DNA of 64,000 nt from the NCBI GenBank assembly GCA_022768865.1, contig JALELH010000098.1, positions 1 through 64,000 on the forward strand, written 5' to 3'. The notes beneath the pieces are model-generated. The model was not told the DNA's origin and did no database searches. It saw nothing but the letters and a program-made list of their open reading frames with translations. The position numbers and the translations under genes are program-made. Every line of letters begins with the position of its first letter. The first letter of the stretch is position 1. This DNA is from Spirochaetia bacterium (GTDB lineage Bacteria; Spirochaetota; Spirochaetia; Treponematales; Treponemataceae). Positions 26,242 to 61,967 of the stretch are shown here, one piece after another.

Positions 26242-27480
26242 ATGGAAAAAAGGCTTTTTTTATTTTTGACTTTATTTACGTGCAGTGTATTTGCTTTTTC
26301 CCAGCAGGTAAGGGGAATTGTAGAAACTCCGAAAATGCAGGTGCTTGCTGATGACGTACTGTTGATTCCTCATGCAGATGAAACCGGAAAAAAGAACGGC
26401 TTTGACCTTTACGTGCGCAAAAAGGATTCAATAAAAAGCGTAATGCTTGTAGAAACCACAAAAGATCCCGAAGGCAAGGAAGCAAACTATGCCTACCGCG
26501 CTGCAGAATGGAACTCCGTAAACGGAGACGAAATCCGCTACCTTAACGGACGGGAACTTCATTCAGAAGCAGCAAAATACAGCCTTATTTCTTCTACAGT
26601 AACACGCCATGCAAAACTTGGCGAATGCTTCCATATTTATATACCAGAAGTCCTGCATTACGGCTATCCGTGGACACGCCACGGAACAGTAAGCATAACC
26701 AAGGGAACATTTATAAACATACGAACTTTTGAAAAGCCATACGGAGACTACACAGGCCGCTATATGGACAACGCCTTTATGTTTGACTTTGGCAAGGCAC
26801 CGGAAAAAAAGCCGGAACCGGAACCAGAAGTAATTCCAGAACCAGTTCCAGAACCGGAAGTAGTCCTTACGGATGATTACAATTCCGTTGCTGCAGAGAA
26901 GTTTGCAGAAATTGCAAAAGACGGTGTAATCTATTATTCAAAGCCTGAAAAACTTACGGAAGATTTGCTTAAGGCAGTTGAAGACATGGGCACAGGCGTT
27001 GCAGACGTAGTTTTTGCCATTGATACGACGGGCAGCATGAAGGACGACCTGGAAAAGCTTAAGGCAGAATGGGTGCCTGCACTGCTTGAGCAGGTTAAGA
27101 AATTTAAAGACATAAGACTCGGCCTGCTTTTTTACAGGGACTATAATGATTCCTACAACTATAAAGGCCTGCCTGTAAAATATTTTGACTTTACAAGGAA
27201 CACGAATCAGTTTACCAAAAACTTAAACACGGTGCGCATACGTGGAAACGAAGGCGGAGACATTCCGGAAGCTGTCTACGAAGCACTTTATGCCGGCCTT
27301 AATTTTTACAGCTGGCGCAAAGGTGCTGCAAAAAAGATTATTTTAATAGGAGATGCCGAACCGCACCCAAAGCCAAGGGGACCTAAGAAAATAACGCAGG
27401 AAAAAGTTATGCAGATGGCAAAAGAAAAAGACGTAACCTTAGACTGCATAATTGTGCCGGACAGCAAGGCGGAGAAATAA
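26242..27480 (+). CDS. Exported VWA-domain protein
   Basis: 412 residues with a signal peptide (about 1-20, FTCSVFAFSQ). Residues about 20-190 are an unrecognised beta-rich region, followed by a Pro-Glu linker (PEPEPEVIPEPVPEPEV). The C-terminal von Willebrand A domain (about 250-412) has the MIDAS loop VVFAIDTTGSMKDDL and a second strand IRLGLLFYRDY, then GGDIPEAVYEAL and KKIILIGDAEPHP. It is probably a periplasmic or surface protein that binds a metal-dependent partner. It stands alone, divergent from the operon at 24.3-26.1 kb. Confidence 0.85.
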   Translation: MEKRLFLFLTLFTCSVFAFSQQVRGIVETPKMQVLADDVLLIPHADETGKKNGFDLYVRKKDSIKSVMLVETTKDPEGKEANYAYRAAEWNSVNGDEIRYLNGRELHSEAAKYSLISSTVTRHAKLGECFHIYIPEVLHYGYPWTRHGTVSITKGTFINIRTFEKPYGDYTGRYMDNAFMFDFGKAPEKKPEPEPEVIPEPVPEPEVVLTDDYNSVAAEKFAEIAKDGVIYYSKPEKLTEDLLKAVEDMGTGVADVVFAIDTTGSMKDDLEKLKAEWVPALLEQVKKFKDIRLGLLFYRDYNDSYNYKGLPVKYFDFTRNTNQFTKNLNTVRIRGNEGGDIPEAVYEALYAGLNFYSWRKGAAKKIILIGDAEPHPKPRGPKKITQEKVMQMAKEKDVTLDCIIVPDSKAEK

Positions 27481-27522: not shown

Positions 27523-27870
27523 CTATAATTTTTGAACTAAAGATGGTTCAATACTAAGCAGGTGAATCAGTTTTTTTGCAGTTGGGGAAGGAGTGCATTT
27601 GCCGCTTTCCCAGGCTTCAACTGTGCGTTTTGAAACACCTATCAATGCTGCAAAGGCTTTTTGTGTCATGTTTAAGCTGGAACGTTCTTTTGCAACATCA
27701 ACTTCCGGCAGGCTTTGCTTTCTGACATAGGTTTCGGCTTTTGCAGAACCTTTTTCGTATGCAAGGGCTTCATTCAAGCCTTCCATTAATCCGTCAAAAA
27801 AAGAGATATTTTTAAAATTTTCAACAATCTGTTCATCTGTTAAAGAAGATTTGAATGTAAGTTCTGCCAT
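27523..27870 (-). CDS. HigA-like XRE antitoxin
   Basis: 115 residues. The C-terminal helix-turn-helix (about 60-110) reads LNMTQKAFAALIGVSKRTVEAWESGKCTPSPTAKKLIHLL, a lambda-repressor-like fold typical of HigA antitoxins. It follows the toxin gene by two bases, the toxin-first order of higBA loci. It should bind the toxin and repress the shared promoter at the palindrome near 28225. Confidence 0.85.
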   Translation of the reverse strand: MAELTFKSSLTDEQIVENFKNISFFDGLMEGLNEALAYEKGSAKAETYVRKQSLPEVDVAKERSSLNMTQKAFAALIGVSKRTVEAWESGKCTPSPTAKKLIHLLSIEPSLVQKL

Positions 27871-27872
27871 GA

Positions 27873-28205
27873 TTATGCCTCCTTTTTGATTTCTTCTATG
27901 ATATTTCTAATAGCCTTTTTCTGGTTCGCAGTCAAATTTTCCTGAACATTCTTTGGATACGCAAACAAAAAGTATAGTTTTTCTTTTTCAAACACATCCA
28001 AGTATATGACTTTGGCACCGCCGCTTTTACCGTGATTTTCAAGTTTAATACGAAGTTTTCTGGCACCTCCTGTTCCTTCTATTACATCTCCGGCTTGTGG
28101 ATTCTTAAGAAGCTCCTGTTCAAGTTCTCTAAGGTTTGTGTCATTTAATCCCATGGCTTTCCAGCAATTATTGAAGGAGGCTGTAAAGATAAATTCTCTA
28201 GTCAT
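27873..28205 (-). CDS. RelE/HigB-family toxin
   Basis: 110 residues from ATG 28205; the longer frame from TTG 28241 would run through the promoter and operator. The fold pattern is that of RelE-superfamily toxins: MTREFIFTASFNNCW, LRELEQELLKNPQAGDVIEGTGGARKLRI, then KVIYLDVFEKEKLYFLFAYPKN and a C-terminal helix. Such proteins cleave mRNA in the ribosome and inhibit growth until bound by the antitoxin. No Shine-Dalgarno is evident before the ATG, which suggests weak translation. Confidence 0.82.
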   Translation of the reverse strand: MTREFIFTASFNNCWKAMGLNDTNLRELEQELLKNPQAGDVIEGTGGARKLRIKLENHGKSGGAKVIYLDVFEKEKLYFLFAYPKNVQENLTANQKKAIRNIIEEIKKEA

Positions 28206-28213
28206 ATATTTAT

Positions 28214-28241
28214 GGTATACGATAAAATCGTATAATGTCAA
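28214..28241 (-). promoter_or_regulatory. Toxin-antitoxin promoter with palindromic operator
   Basis: On the minus strand TTGACA (28241-28236) and TATACC (28219-28214) have a 16-bp spacer. The spacer holds a perfect palindrome, TATACGAT-AAA-ATCGTATA, at 28216-28234, overlapping the -10. This is where an XRE antitoxin would bind for autoregulation. Confidence 0.75.
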
Positions 28242-28383: not shown

Positions 28384-28494
28384 TCCTTTAAAAAGTGTCA
28401 TTTTATTTTTTTTTACCATTATAAGATATATATGGAGTTTTTGTTGCCGGTGGCGGCAGAAACCCTGATAACTTATCTTATAGGAGTAAAAATT

Positions 28495-28706
28495 ATGAAT
28501 GGATTTAAACCCGTAGAAGAACTTGAACTTACAGATGATTTTATGTTCATGGCTGTAATCAGGGCATTTCCATCGGTGCTTTACAAAAGGCTATGGATGC
28601 GGCAAAAAAGTTATTGGCAACAGGTTTATCTAAAGAGCAGATTTCAAGTTGTCTGGATTTGCCCATAGAAAAGATAGAACATCTTTCTAAGCAGGCAGAT
28701 AAATAA
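28495..28706 (+). pseudogene. Rpn/PD-(D/E)XK transposase-family remnant with internal deletion
   Basis: ATG 28495 with GGAG upstream starts MNGFKPVEELELTDDFMF, the usual N-terminus of Rpn-type PD-(D/E)XK nuclease/transposase proteins. After about 20 codons the frame changes near 28560, and the C-terminus of the same family continues in another frame (AMDAAKKLLATGLSKEQISS, then CLDLPIEKIEHLSKQADK, stop at 28706). The whole catalytic middle, about 200 codons in intact members, is missing. This is a decayed mobile-type gene. Confidence 0.75.
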
Positions 28707-28847
28707 ACTGGTATAAAAGTTGCGCAGGTTTTGCCTGCGTTAGCTTGCGGCTCACTCAAAGGGCGCTCAGTGCCTGCAATAGGAAAGGCTGGTGCGCTTT
28801 GTCTTTATTATTGATGCACTTTTTGTTTTATTAGGGTGTACTGAAAA
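28707..28847. other. Intergenic stretch before repeat array A
   Basis: No gene seen. CGCAGG-TTTTG-CCTGCG at about 28722-28738 forms a six-base-pair hairpin behind the Rpn remnant and may be its old terminator, though no T tract follows. The stretch leads directly into array A. Confidence 0.5.
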
Positions 28848-29160
28848 TTTCATACGTATGACGGGGTAATTTCATACGTATGACGGGGGTAATTTCATAC
28901 GTATGACGGGGGTAATTTCATACGTATGAAATGGATGGGTTTATCCGTATAAAGTTGGCACGTTTATACGGATAAAGTGGGCACGTTTATACGGATAAAA
29001 GAATTTTTTTATCTTGATAAACATGGTAACTTTATCCAGATGAAATGGGTAAGTTTATCTAGATAAAGTGGTTAGGTTTATCCAGATGAAATGGGTACGG
29101 TCATCTAGATGAAATTAGTACCGTCATCTAGATGAAATTTTACAGCCATCTAGATGAAAT
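28848..29160. repeat. Array A: fourteen 22-23-bp tandem units with palindromic cores
   Basis: Palindrome centres fall at 28855, 28877, 28900, 28923, 28946, 28969, 28992, 29014, 29037, 29060, 29083, 29106, 29129 and 29151 (all +0.5), so spacing is 22 or 23 throughout. Cores in order: four CATACGTATG, then TATCCGTATA, two TATACGGATA, TATCTTGATA, TATCCAGATG, TATCTAGATA, TATCCAGATG and three CATCTAGATG, mostly flanked by TTT and AAA. The linkers are G-rich on the plus strand (such as GTGGGCACG, ATGGGTAAG). It lies between the 3' ends of the Rpn remnant and the lipoprotein gene. Confidence 0.95.
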
Positions 29161-29291
29161 TGCCGGGAAGGCGGGAAAAGGGCGAGATGCTATTGGGCTG
29201 TCAGCCTAAAGAACCCTTAGGTTTGCAATAGGTTAGGCTGGGGATAGATGACCACCGCTTGTTATGTTTTCTGCATCTGCCATAGCTTAAA
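29161..29291. other. 3' flank of the large lipoprotein gene with inverted repeat
   Basis: CAGCCTAA and TTAGGCTG near 29203-29240 form an eight-base-pair inverted repeat around a loop of about 22 bases. It may end transcription of the lipoprotein gene, although no strong T tract is present. No coding sequence is apparent. Confidence 0.5.
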
Positions 29292-32201: not shown

Positions 32202-32360
32202 AGTAGTGGTAGCATTTATTCAACAGTTGTTGGGCGAAAGCCTTTAGTAATAGCTCTCAATGTCGTTGAGTAACAGCTCTCAATGACCTTTAGTAATGGC
32301 TCTCAACAACATTGAGTAATAGCTCTAAATGACCTTGCATAATGGCTTGCACAGTGCTTC
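32202..32360. repeat. Array B: 21-23-bp tandem units (AGTAATAGCTCT family)
   Basis: Units begin at 32202, 32225, 32246, 32269, 32292, 32315 and 32338. Clear copies start AGTAATAGCTCTC, AGTAACAGCTCTC, AGTAATGGCTCTC and AGTAATAGCTCTA; the outer ones are diverged (AGTAGTGGTAGC, AGTTGTTGGGCG, CATAATGGCTTG). Across unit borders CTCAA-N5-TTGAG forms a perfect dyad in two places. The array lies between the divergent starts of the lipoprotein gene and tRNA-Asn. Confidence 0.9.
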
Positions 32361-32586: not shown

Positions 32587-32724
32587 ATGCACAAACAGTA
32601 CCACTGTTGTAGTCAAGAACAGCGGTGCGTTATAGTCAACAACACACATCGTGTATAGTCAAGAACACAGTATCCCCGTAGTCGACAACACAGGTTGTGC
32701 TTAATCAATAACACGCATTGTGCT
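32587..32724. repeat. Array C: six 23-bp tandem units (TAGTCAAGAACA family)
   Basis: Units start at 32587, 32610, 32633, 32656, 32679 and 32702, exactly 23 bp apart. Five begin TAGTCAAGAACA, TAGTCAACAACA, TAGTCAAGAACA, TAGTCGACAACA and TAATCAATAACA; the first (ATGCACAAACAG) is diverged. Most carry a small dyad with a five-base loop: ACAG-N5-CTGT, CAC-ACATC-GTG, CAC-AGGTT-GTG, CAC-GCATT-GTG. It lies between the tRNA-Asn terminator and the bactofilin gene. Confidence 0.9.
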
Positions 32725-32751
32725 GCAGCATGGGCAGGGCATGATAATTGT

Positions 32752-61760: not shown

Positions 61761-61911
61761 CTACGTGCATCTTATTATTCGTCTATAATCATGTTTTCCA
61801 AGGACTGTAATCATGTTGCCTGGGGACTATAAAAACGTTCTCCATGGACTATAACCATGGTCTTCATCGTCTATAAACACGTTCTCCGTGGACCAAGAAT
61901 ACTCTGCTGAC
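61761..61911. repeat. Array D1: 22-bp tandem units (GACTATAA family)
   Basis: Units anchored on CTATAA start at 61783, 61805, 61827, 61849, 61871 and 61893, exactly 22 bp apart, with a diverged copy (CTACGTGCATC) at 61761. Each has a dyad with a five-base loop of type CAYG-TTYTC-CRTG; CACG-TTCTC-CGTG at about 61878-61890 is perfect. On the minus strand units read TATAGTCC...GAACA, recalling array C. It lies between the convergent ends of the SUMF1 and manA genes. Confidence 0.9.
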
Positions 61912-61967
61912 AGTACCTACAGTATTCTGCGGATAGTACCTGCAGCATTATGAATATAGTACTGTGG
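61912..61967. repeat. Array D2: 23-bp tandem units (AGTACC family)
   Basis: Starting at 61912, 61935 and 61958, units begin AGTACCTACAG, AGTACCTGCAG and AGTACTGTGG (partial). Dyads GTAC-CTACA-GTAT and GTAC-CTGCA-GCAT again have five-base loops. It directly continues array D1 with a slightly different period and sequence. Confidence 0.8.

Follow-up and report, generated by a model that had tools for sequence, protein, structure and literature searches.

A fourteen-unit palindromic array and its neighborhood

The window, by which we mean the whole 64-kb stretch of DNA analyzed, carries an intergenic array of fourteen palindromic 14-bp units at positions 28849 to 29158, the first unit lying at 28849 to 28862 and the last at 29145 to 29158. 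Its neighbors encode a RelE/HTH toxin-antitoxin pair, a VWA protein, and a 950-amino-acid protein without a Pfam match; no HU-HIG or HU-Ig gene, and no ParA or ParB gene, was found among the neighboring genes scanned. The RelE-type toxin and HTH antitoxin (27523 to 28241) have copies 75 to 79% identical in genomes G065 and G009, and the pair appears to be mobile, since the best matches of these two genomes to the neighboring VWA gene lie on other contigs. Positions 28390 to 28548 recur at 26434 to 26595 of contig C37 of the same genome (G000) with 87% identity, and a degenerate reading frame at 28480 to 28706, which starts MNGFKPVEELELTDDFMFMAV, resembles on visual inspection the beginning of an Rpn/PD-(D/E)XK-type gene whose middle is missing. 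When orthologs of the window were sought in relatives, only neighboring genes were recovered (65 to 79% identity), and no strain pair was available for the array itself.

Centre-to-centre steps along the array are 22, 23, 23, 23, 23, 23, 22, 23, 23, 23, 23, 23, and 22 bp, with linkers of 8 to 9 bp between units, so the fourteen units at 22- or 23-bp steps described in the original prediction are borne out coordinate by coordinate. TRF reported the same region as several overlapping 23/46-bp arrays. Across all 64 kb, a self-identity of at least 60% over 92 bp was confined to periods of 22 and 23 bp and their doubles, 44 and 46; at the remaining periods between 10 and 60 it was 50% or less. Symmetry is, as had been claimed, nearly always kept: each unit retains five to seven complementary pairs of a possible seven, and 87% of the cells of the seven-pair dyad are paired across the fourteen units, compared with 38 to 52% when the partner column is slid by one to three positions. 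The covariation score of these units was matched by 1 of 500 shuffles.

The array falls into three segments. Units 1 to 4 (28846 to 28932) are of the form TTTCATACGTATGA(C/A) and are joined by GGGGGTAA-type linkers. Units 5 to 7 (28938 to 29001) have the centres CCGT, ACGG, and ACGG, and unit 5 (ATCCGTAT) is indeed the reverse complement of units 6 and 7 (ATACGGAT), in the case of unit 6 over 14 bp. Units 8 to 14 (29006 to 29161) have the centres CTTG, CCAG, CTAG, CCAG, and three times CTAG. The series of outer pairs had been read correctly as C-G (units 1 to 4), T-A (5 to 8 and 10), T-G (9 and 11), and again C-G (12 to 14).

The earlier remark that no named element fits holds for the array, which matched neither the Rfam covariance models nor plasmid and phage sequences; without such a sequence match, a plasmid or phage origin was rejected. 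CRISPR was rejected because the linkers recur (GGGGGTAA-type three times, ATGGGTA-type twice) and the palindromes vary, unlike identical repeats with unique spacers. One geometrical point in the original prediction, sites strictly on one face of the DNA, is not supported: at 10.5 bp per turn, steps of 22 to 23 bp turn each site by about 34 to 69 degrees.

Three more arrays of 22 to 23 bp with other sequences, overlooked at first, lie in the same window. One at 32241 to 32345, between the 950-amino-acid gene and tRNA-Asn, has a 23-bp period and units of the TTGAG-TAATAGCT-CTCAA type (dyad P = 0.03). The second, at 32595 to 32735 between tRNA-Asn and a 121-amino-acid gene, has a period of about 23 bp and TAGTCAAGAACAC-type units, and the third, at 61775 to 61962 between convergent genes, has a 22- to 23-bp period and units of the GGACTATAA and ATAGTACCT types; the dyad is not significant in either. 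None of the three matched any HU-linked array found in our analysis.

Dispersed units at a constant period

In its own genome, a 2.75-Mb draft of 125 contigs that is ~90% complete, the family of the window array occupies about 13 loci, and the array is not an isolated case. Its palindromes are 14 bp long and read TTYAT-N4-ATRAA, with the centres ACGT, CTAG, CCGG, and CTTG/CAAG. An ordinary transcription-factor regulon was rejected because type-A sites are almost never solitary (~2 of ~70 palindromes).

The window array is pieced together from units that are dispersed over several loci. Units 2 to 4 agree with units of loci L002, L003, and L004 in 30 to 31 of 32 bp, and units 9 to 11 have their best match in locus L007, so the core changes come in blocks. 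The original prediction was right that the core changes along the array, but a gradual compensatory drift along it is not supported. The order of unit types is common to L002, L003, L004, and L005, and multi-unit elements recur in unrelated flanks. Three loci (L008, L016, and L017) share 93 to 96% identity over 144 to 155 bp between unrelated flanks, with 12-bp inverted repeats at their ends (AAATTTCATACG/CGTATGAAATTT) that are perfect in L017. At L044, one unit type has been homogenized within the array.

Comparable elements occur elsewhere. In 'Mediterranea' sp. Cc175_bin25 (JAIRKY contigs; L101, L102, L113, L127, L128, L134, L143, L151, L165, L166, and L171), many element copies have the form CCCAATAGAACGAACAGGTTTT-[GTCATGCGCATGAT N9]n-GCGAAAGTTTTACATCGGC, with ~3 to 8 units and linkers in both orientations; some copies are one-ended, and the ends are conserved in most of 12 copies. 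Treponema sp. Nc350_bin204 (L122 and L124) carries TTCAT-N4-ATGAA and TTCCG-N4-CGGAA palindromes, the latter in more than 20 units, which have the linker CTAAGCCTG in common and differ in their arms. At five Treponema loci (L007, L008, L018, L009, and L010), the T-rich array end directly meets the run of T's in a terminator-like hairpin that belongs to a neighboring gene or tRNA.

Such copies could be read as dispersed, nonautonomous BOX/REP/MITE-like repeats with tandem units, moved by an unknown enzyme and bound by no functional partner, whose closeness to HU genes would reflect an insertion preference or hitchhiking. The near-identical copies with inverted ends in unrelated flanks, the conserved ends in 'Mediterranea', and the absence of any copy inside an open reading frame (ORF) speak for it. 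Against it, the IS200-like transposase of the RAYT class (PF01797) is absent from G000, G040, G052, G011, and G196, and no target-site duplication was seen; it also leaves unexplained why unrelated sequences share a 22- to 23-bp period, why HU paralogs have different palindromes, and why linkage to HU genes is so strong (odds ratios of 47 to 76; see below). We consider this account unlikely as a full explanation, although both it and a role as HU sites may be true, the former being how the arrays spread. A REP/RAYT system in particular was rejected, given the absence of the PF01797 Y1 transposase from the ~90% complete G000.

The period itself extends far beyond one sequence family. A scan of 411 kb of the genome, a sample that favors contigs with known arrays, gave 12 arrays at period 22 and 16 at period 23, with 0 to 3 at each remaining period between 12 and 41. 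Many of these are unrelated in sequence (TTCCTC-N7-GAGGAA, GTGTTTAAGCTTAAACAC, GCACCC-N6-GGGTGC, and others). After merging, none of 22 arrays lay inside an ORF (18 were intergenic and 4 were at stretch edges), while intergenic DNA makes up ~10% of the sample. A geometry scan for three units across 85,000 species returned 76 loci in Treponema, Bacteroidales, Prevotellaceae, Marinifilum, cable bacteria, and others, some of which are probably chance matches in AT-rich genomes. Stretches of further genomes were chosen mostly without regard to arrays: 200 kb of Bacteroides ndongoniae contained eight arrays of period 22, and 182 kb of Marinifilum contained five of period 23, every one of them on a contig where arrays had been known beforehand, while Fodinibius had one array of period 21 and one of period 22 in 160 kb. 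Apart from a borderline 21-bp match in G049, the samples from Treponema G044, G049, and G001 gave none. Periods of 22 to 23 bp dominate the tandem repeats of the host genome, Bacteroides ndongoniae, and Marinifilum, in many unrelated sequences. A full-text literature search, with most subscription journals outside its reach, returned no account of arrays of this kind, whether linked to HU proteins or not.

A purely mutational origin, in which hairpin-assisted slippage of a unit of about two turns builds the array and quasipalindrome correction maintains the symmetry without selection, would accommodate the flipping orientation of centres and linkers and the homogenization at L044. It fits poorly with a narrow period across phyla, strong linkage to one protein superfamily, and a unit-type order kept at four loci, or with the orthologous array of G011 (contig C127, L010) and G043 (contig C104, L009), which is 99% conserved between these two related genomes; we regard it as very improbable. 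The left flank of that array is 98% identical, and a 200-bp patch at 70% identity begins at the distal array end; a recombination boundary there was rejected, as identity climbs again 200 bp on. Loss of SbcCD as the cause of palindrome buildup was likewise rejected, SbcD being present in G000.

Covariation of the dyad, probably in duplex DNA

We examined covariation between genomes in 30 genomes with the geometry of the window array, using shuffling to obtain P values. The search pattern restricted positions 2 to 5 and 10 to 13 (with C/T at 3 and A/G at 12) and left pairs 1/14 and 6/9 free. Pair 1/14 is complementary in 22 of the 30 genomes, with T-A, G-C, A-T, and C-G all occurring (P = 0.0002); pair 3/12 in 27 (P = 0.0002); and pair 6/9 in 18 (P = 0.0002). 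Pair 7/8 gave no covariation signal across the same genomes, and slid control columns equaled expectation. The letters change across these genomes while pairs 1/14, 3/12, and 6/9 covary, so the original view that the dyad itself is maintained is upheld. Dyad symmetry was also significant (P < 0.05) in 23 of 33 HU-linked arrays (Fisher, 2.5e-23); several arrays tested did not reach significance.

The third pair is looser within Treponema (odds ratio 2.4, P = 0.014). With 24 Treponema arrays placed in one orientation, it is CG 53 times, TA 31 times, TG 27 times, and CA 25 times. Since a T-G pair reads as C-A from the opposite strand, the near equality of TG and CA speaks against wobble on a defined single strand, and the proposed reading of the T-G states as wobble intermediates fails. 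Centres occur in either orientation, matching the prediction for symmetric duplex sites. Pairing between neighboring units, which would form a 14-bp stem with a 9-nucleotide loop and had been suggested by CAAG/CTTG alternation, was rejected: neighboring nonpalindromic centres are the same in 25 cases and reverse complementary in 23.

These counts also speak against the proposal that the array is transcribed as a row of RNA hairpins serving as a terminator, an RNA sponge, or a 3-prime stabilizer. Both strands do fold far better as RNA than their shuffles (z = −9.7 and −13.0), as they must, since the units are palindromes; neither strand shows a G-U preference, neighboring centres show no excess of complementarity, and there is no Rfam match. 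We judge this proposal slightly less probable even than slippage. The sites are symmetric with a flippable centre, have no strand preference, and match no RNA family, all of which favors duplex DNA. Of the two alternatives first envisaged, a dimeric protein or folded single strands, strand-specific folding is therefore disfavored by the equality of TG and CA, and a dimer is favored, with a candidate family provided by gene linkage.

HU-superfamily genes and the arrays beside them

Relatives of the window array adjoin genes of the HU superfamily. Loci L004, L008, and L018 lie beside genes for paralogous 152-amino-acid HU-HIG proteins (PF18291, E ~1e-21); these are the three strongest HU-HIG matches of the genome, on contigs C20, C78, and C96. 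The same neighborhood is found in G011, G043, and G065. Other HU-HIG genes are directly adjoined by other palindromes, e.g., AAAAGGTATATACCTTTT, CGGGAGG-CCA-CCTCCCG, and GGGAACGTTCCC/GAGAACGTTCTC/GGAAACGTTTCC. Nine HU-Ig genes, which encode an HU domain with a DUF4469 Ig-like domain (PF14848 plus PF14734), have a nearby array in the same genome (C11, C5, C87, C76, C69, C37, C89, C18, and C100), 7 to 252 bp upstream in the six measured, and their palindromes all differ (TCCAC..GTGGA, GCATATGCACATATGC, GAGG..CCTC, GGTATATTATAATATACC, CGTAGCTACG, GTAACAATGTTAC, GAGGGT..ACCCTC, TCCCAC..GTGGGA, and TTCCTC..GAGGAA). Many genomes of Treponema and Bacteroidota encode several such paralogs, and many of the genes have an adjoining array, frequently immediately upstream. 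Palindromes mostly differ between HU paralogs, and both families occur in many copies per genome.

In Bacteroidota, an array of period 21 to 23 lies within 500 bp of 22 of 30 HU-HIG genes; for control ORFs taken from elsewhere in those genomes, the figure is 35 of 634 (odds ratio 47, P = 1.7e-19; 500-bp flanks, low-complexity repeats excluded). At other periods, the same HU-HIG flanks gave 1 of 30 (17 to 19), 0 of 30 (25 to 27), and 1 of 30 (28 to 30). In Treponema, arrays accompany 14 of 30 PF14848 loci and 4 of 351 control windows from other Treponema genomes (P = 3e-14). Linkage odds ratios range from 47 to 76 in genomes drawn partly because of their arrays, and no array was detected at 8 of the 30 Bacteroidota and 16 of the 30 Treponema genes.

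The window array has sequence ties to these loci. Positions 28864 to 28966 are 91% identical over 103 bp to the array beside the HU-HIG gene on C20, and positions 28963 to 29092, which span units 6 to 11, are 72% identical over 132 bp to that on C78, making the window array an orphan whose units resemble those of two or more HU-HIG paralogs. Other orphans show the same pattern: L049 matches the array beside the HU-Ig gene on C89, and L041 matches one ~1.5 kb upstream of the HU-Ig gene on C33. With HU-paralog-linked palindromic arrays, the window array shares an intergenic position at period 21 to 23, a dyad in each unit, and a match to HU-linked sequence; because its relatives at C20, C78, and C96 adjoin HU-HIG genes and it does not, we treat it as an orphan relative rather than a full member.

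Since the arrays are far commoner than chance beside HU-type genes, each gene having its own palindrome, those of Treponema and Bacteroidota are most likely matched docking sites of expanded HU-type proteins, the predicted binders. The window array itself is probably a row of tandem duplex sites for a dedicated HU-type dimer, of a kind that would be autoregulatory beside genes and dispersed elsewhere. One palindromic unit would be the site of one HU-superfamily dimer, and the two-turn repeat would allow neighboring dimers to pack side by side, in contact and perhaps cooperatively. An array upstream of its own HU paralog gene would autoregulate that gene, while scattered intergenic copies, among them the window array with its C20-like and C78-like units, would attract that protein to further places, to mark the chromosome or to structure the nucleoid. 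Candidate roles for orphans include nucleoid organization, marking of self DNA, and preemption of mobile DNA, the last of which Burroughs et al. (2017) reportedly suggested for HU-HIG proteins. Among the points that count against an HU dimer are that 23 bp is not exactly two turns, that the window array has no adjoining HU gene, that HU proteins are usually only weakly sequence specific, and that some HU genes have no detected array while some arrays, including the other three of the window, match no HU-linked array or show no significant dyad. By sequence, the HU-HIG protein weakly matched two HU structures among those solved, and the HU-Ig protein matched none. HU-HIG proteins beside arrays with ATTG/CAAT centres (C78 and G065 C28) contain NPRDLDAD, and those beside ACGT- or CCGG-centre arrays contain NPQ; these are possible specificity residues, judging from five sequences (G000 C20, C96, and C78; G065 C28; G011 C127).

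More tentatively, and with somewhat less than even confidence, we suggest a genome-marking system in which up to ~twenty HU paralogs per genome would each have a palindrome-specific array as an address label, the specificities of proteins and arrays coevolving between paralogs and species and orphan arrays spreading the labels for nucleoid organization, self-marking, or preemption of invading DNA. To our knowledge, no DNA target is known for the HU-HIG and HU-Ig proteins that have expanded in Bacteroidota and some Spirochaetes. Each paralog-array pair names a candidate target and thereby makes specificity directly testable, and many such pairs together could reveal a natural protein-DNA code for the HU fold. 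A large class of intergenic tandem repeats, otherwise unexplained and minisatellite-like, would also gain a likely partner.

The array-linked genes belong to the same multicopy families, the HU-HIG and HU-Ig proteins of Bacteroidota (PF18291, PF14848, and PF14734), that Burroughs et al. reportedly described in 2017, proposing roles in recognizing invasive DNA and in partitioning the chromosome; no account of cognate tandem palindromic arrays adjoining their genes is known to us. Plasmid and phage centromeres (SopB-sopC, ParB-parS, and omega heptads) likewise place the gene for a dimeric DNA binder beside a row of palindromic sites. Here, however, the protein belongs to the HU superfamily rather than to ParB or RHH, each chromosome holds many paralog-array pairs plus orphans, and each paralog has its own palindrome. 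The lambda OR and 434 OR operators are autoregulatory and consist of palindromic sites for dimers, spaced by about two turns; our arrays differ in forming rows of 4 to 18 sites, in their predicted HU-type binder, and in their dispersed copies. REP/BIME elements are dispersed, partly clustered extragenic palindromes with GTAG or CGTC tags and 20- to 40-bp hairpins (PMC3733652); our arrays have a period of 22 to 23 bp, no constant tag that we could see, and no Y1 transposase in the host genome. The BOX elements of Streptococcus pneumoniae are dispersed and intergenic, and their conserved ends enclose tandem units whose number varies (PMC3049150). The A1 to A3 elements of G000 and the 'Mediterranea' copies resemble them in architecture; our arrays differ in having a 23-bp palindrome as the internal unit, in the single period common to many unrelated families, and in their linkage to HU genes. 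A DNA-binding protein with tandem cognate sites is an already known kind of arrangement; a paralog-array code, if confirmed, would be a system of its own.
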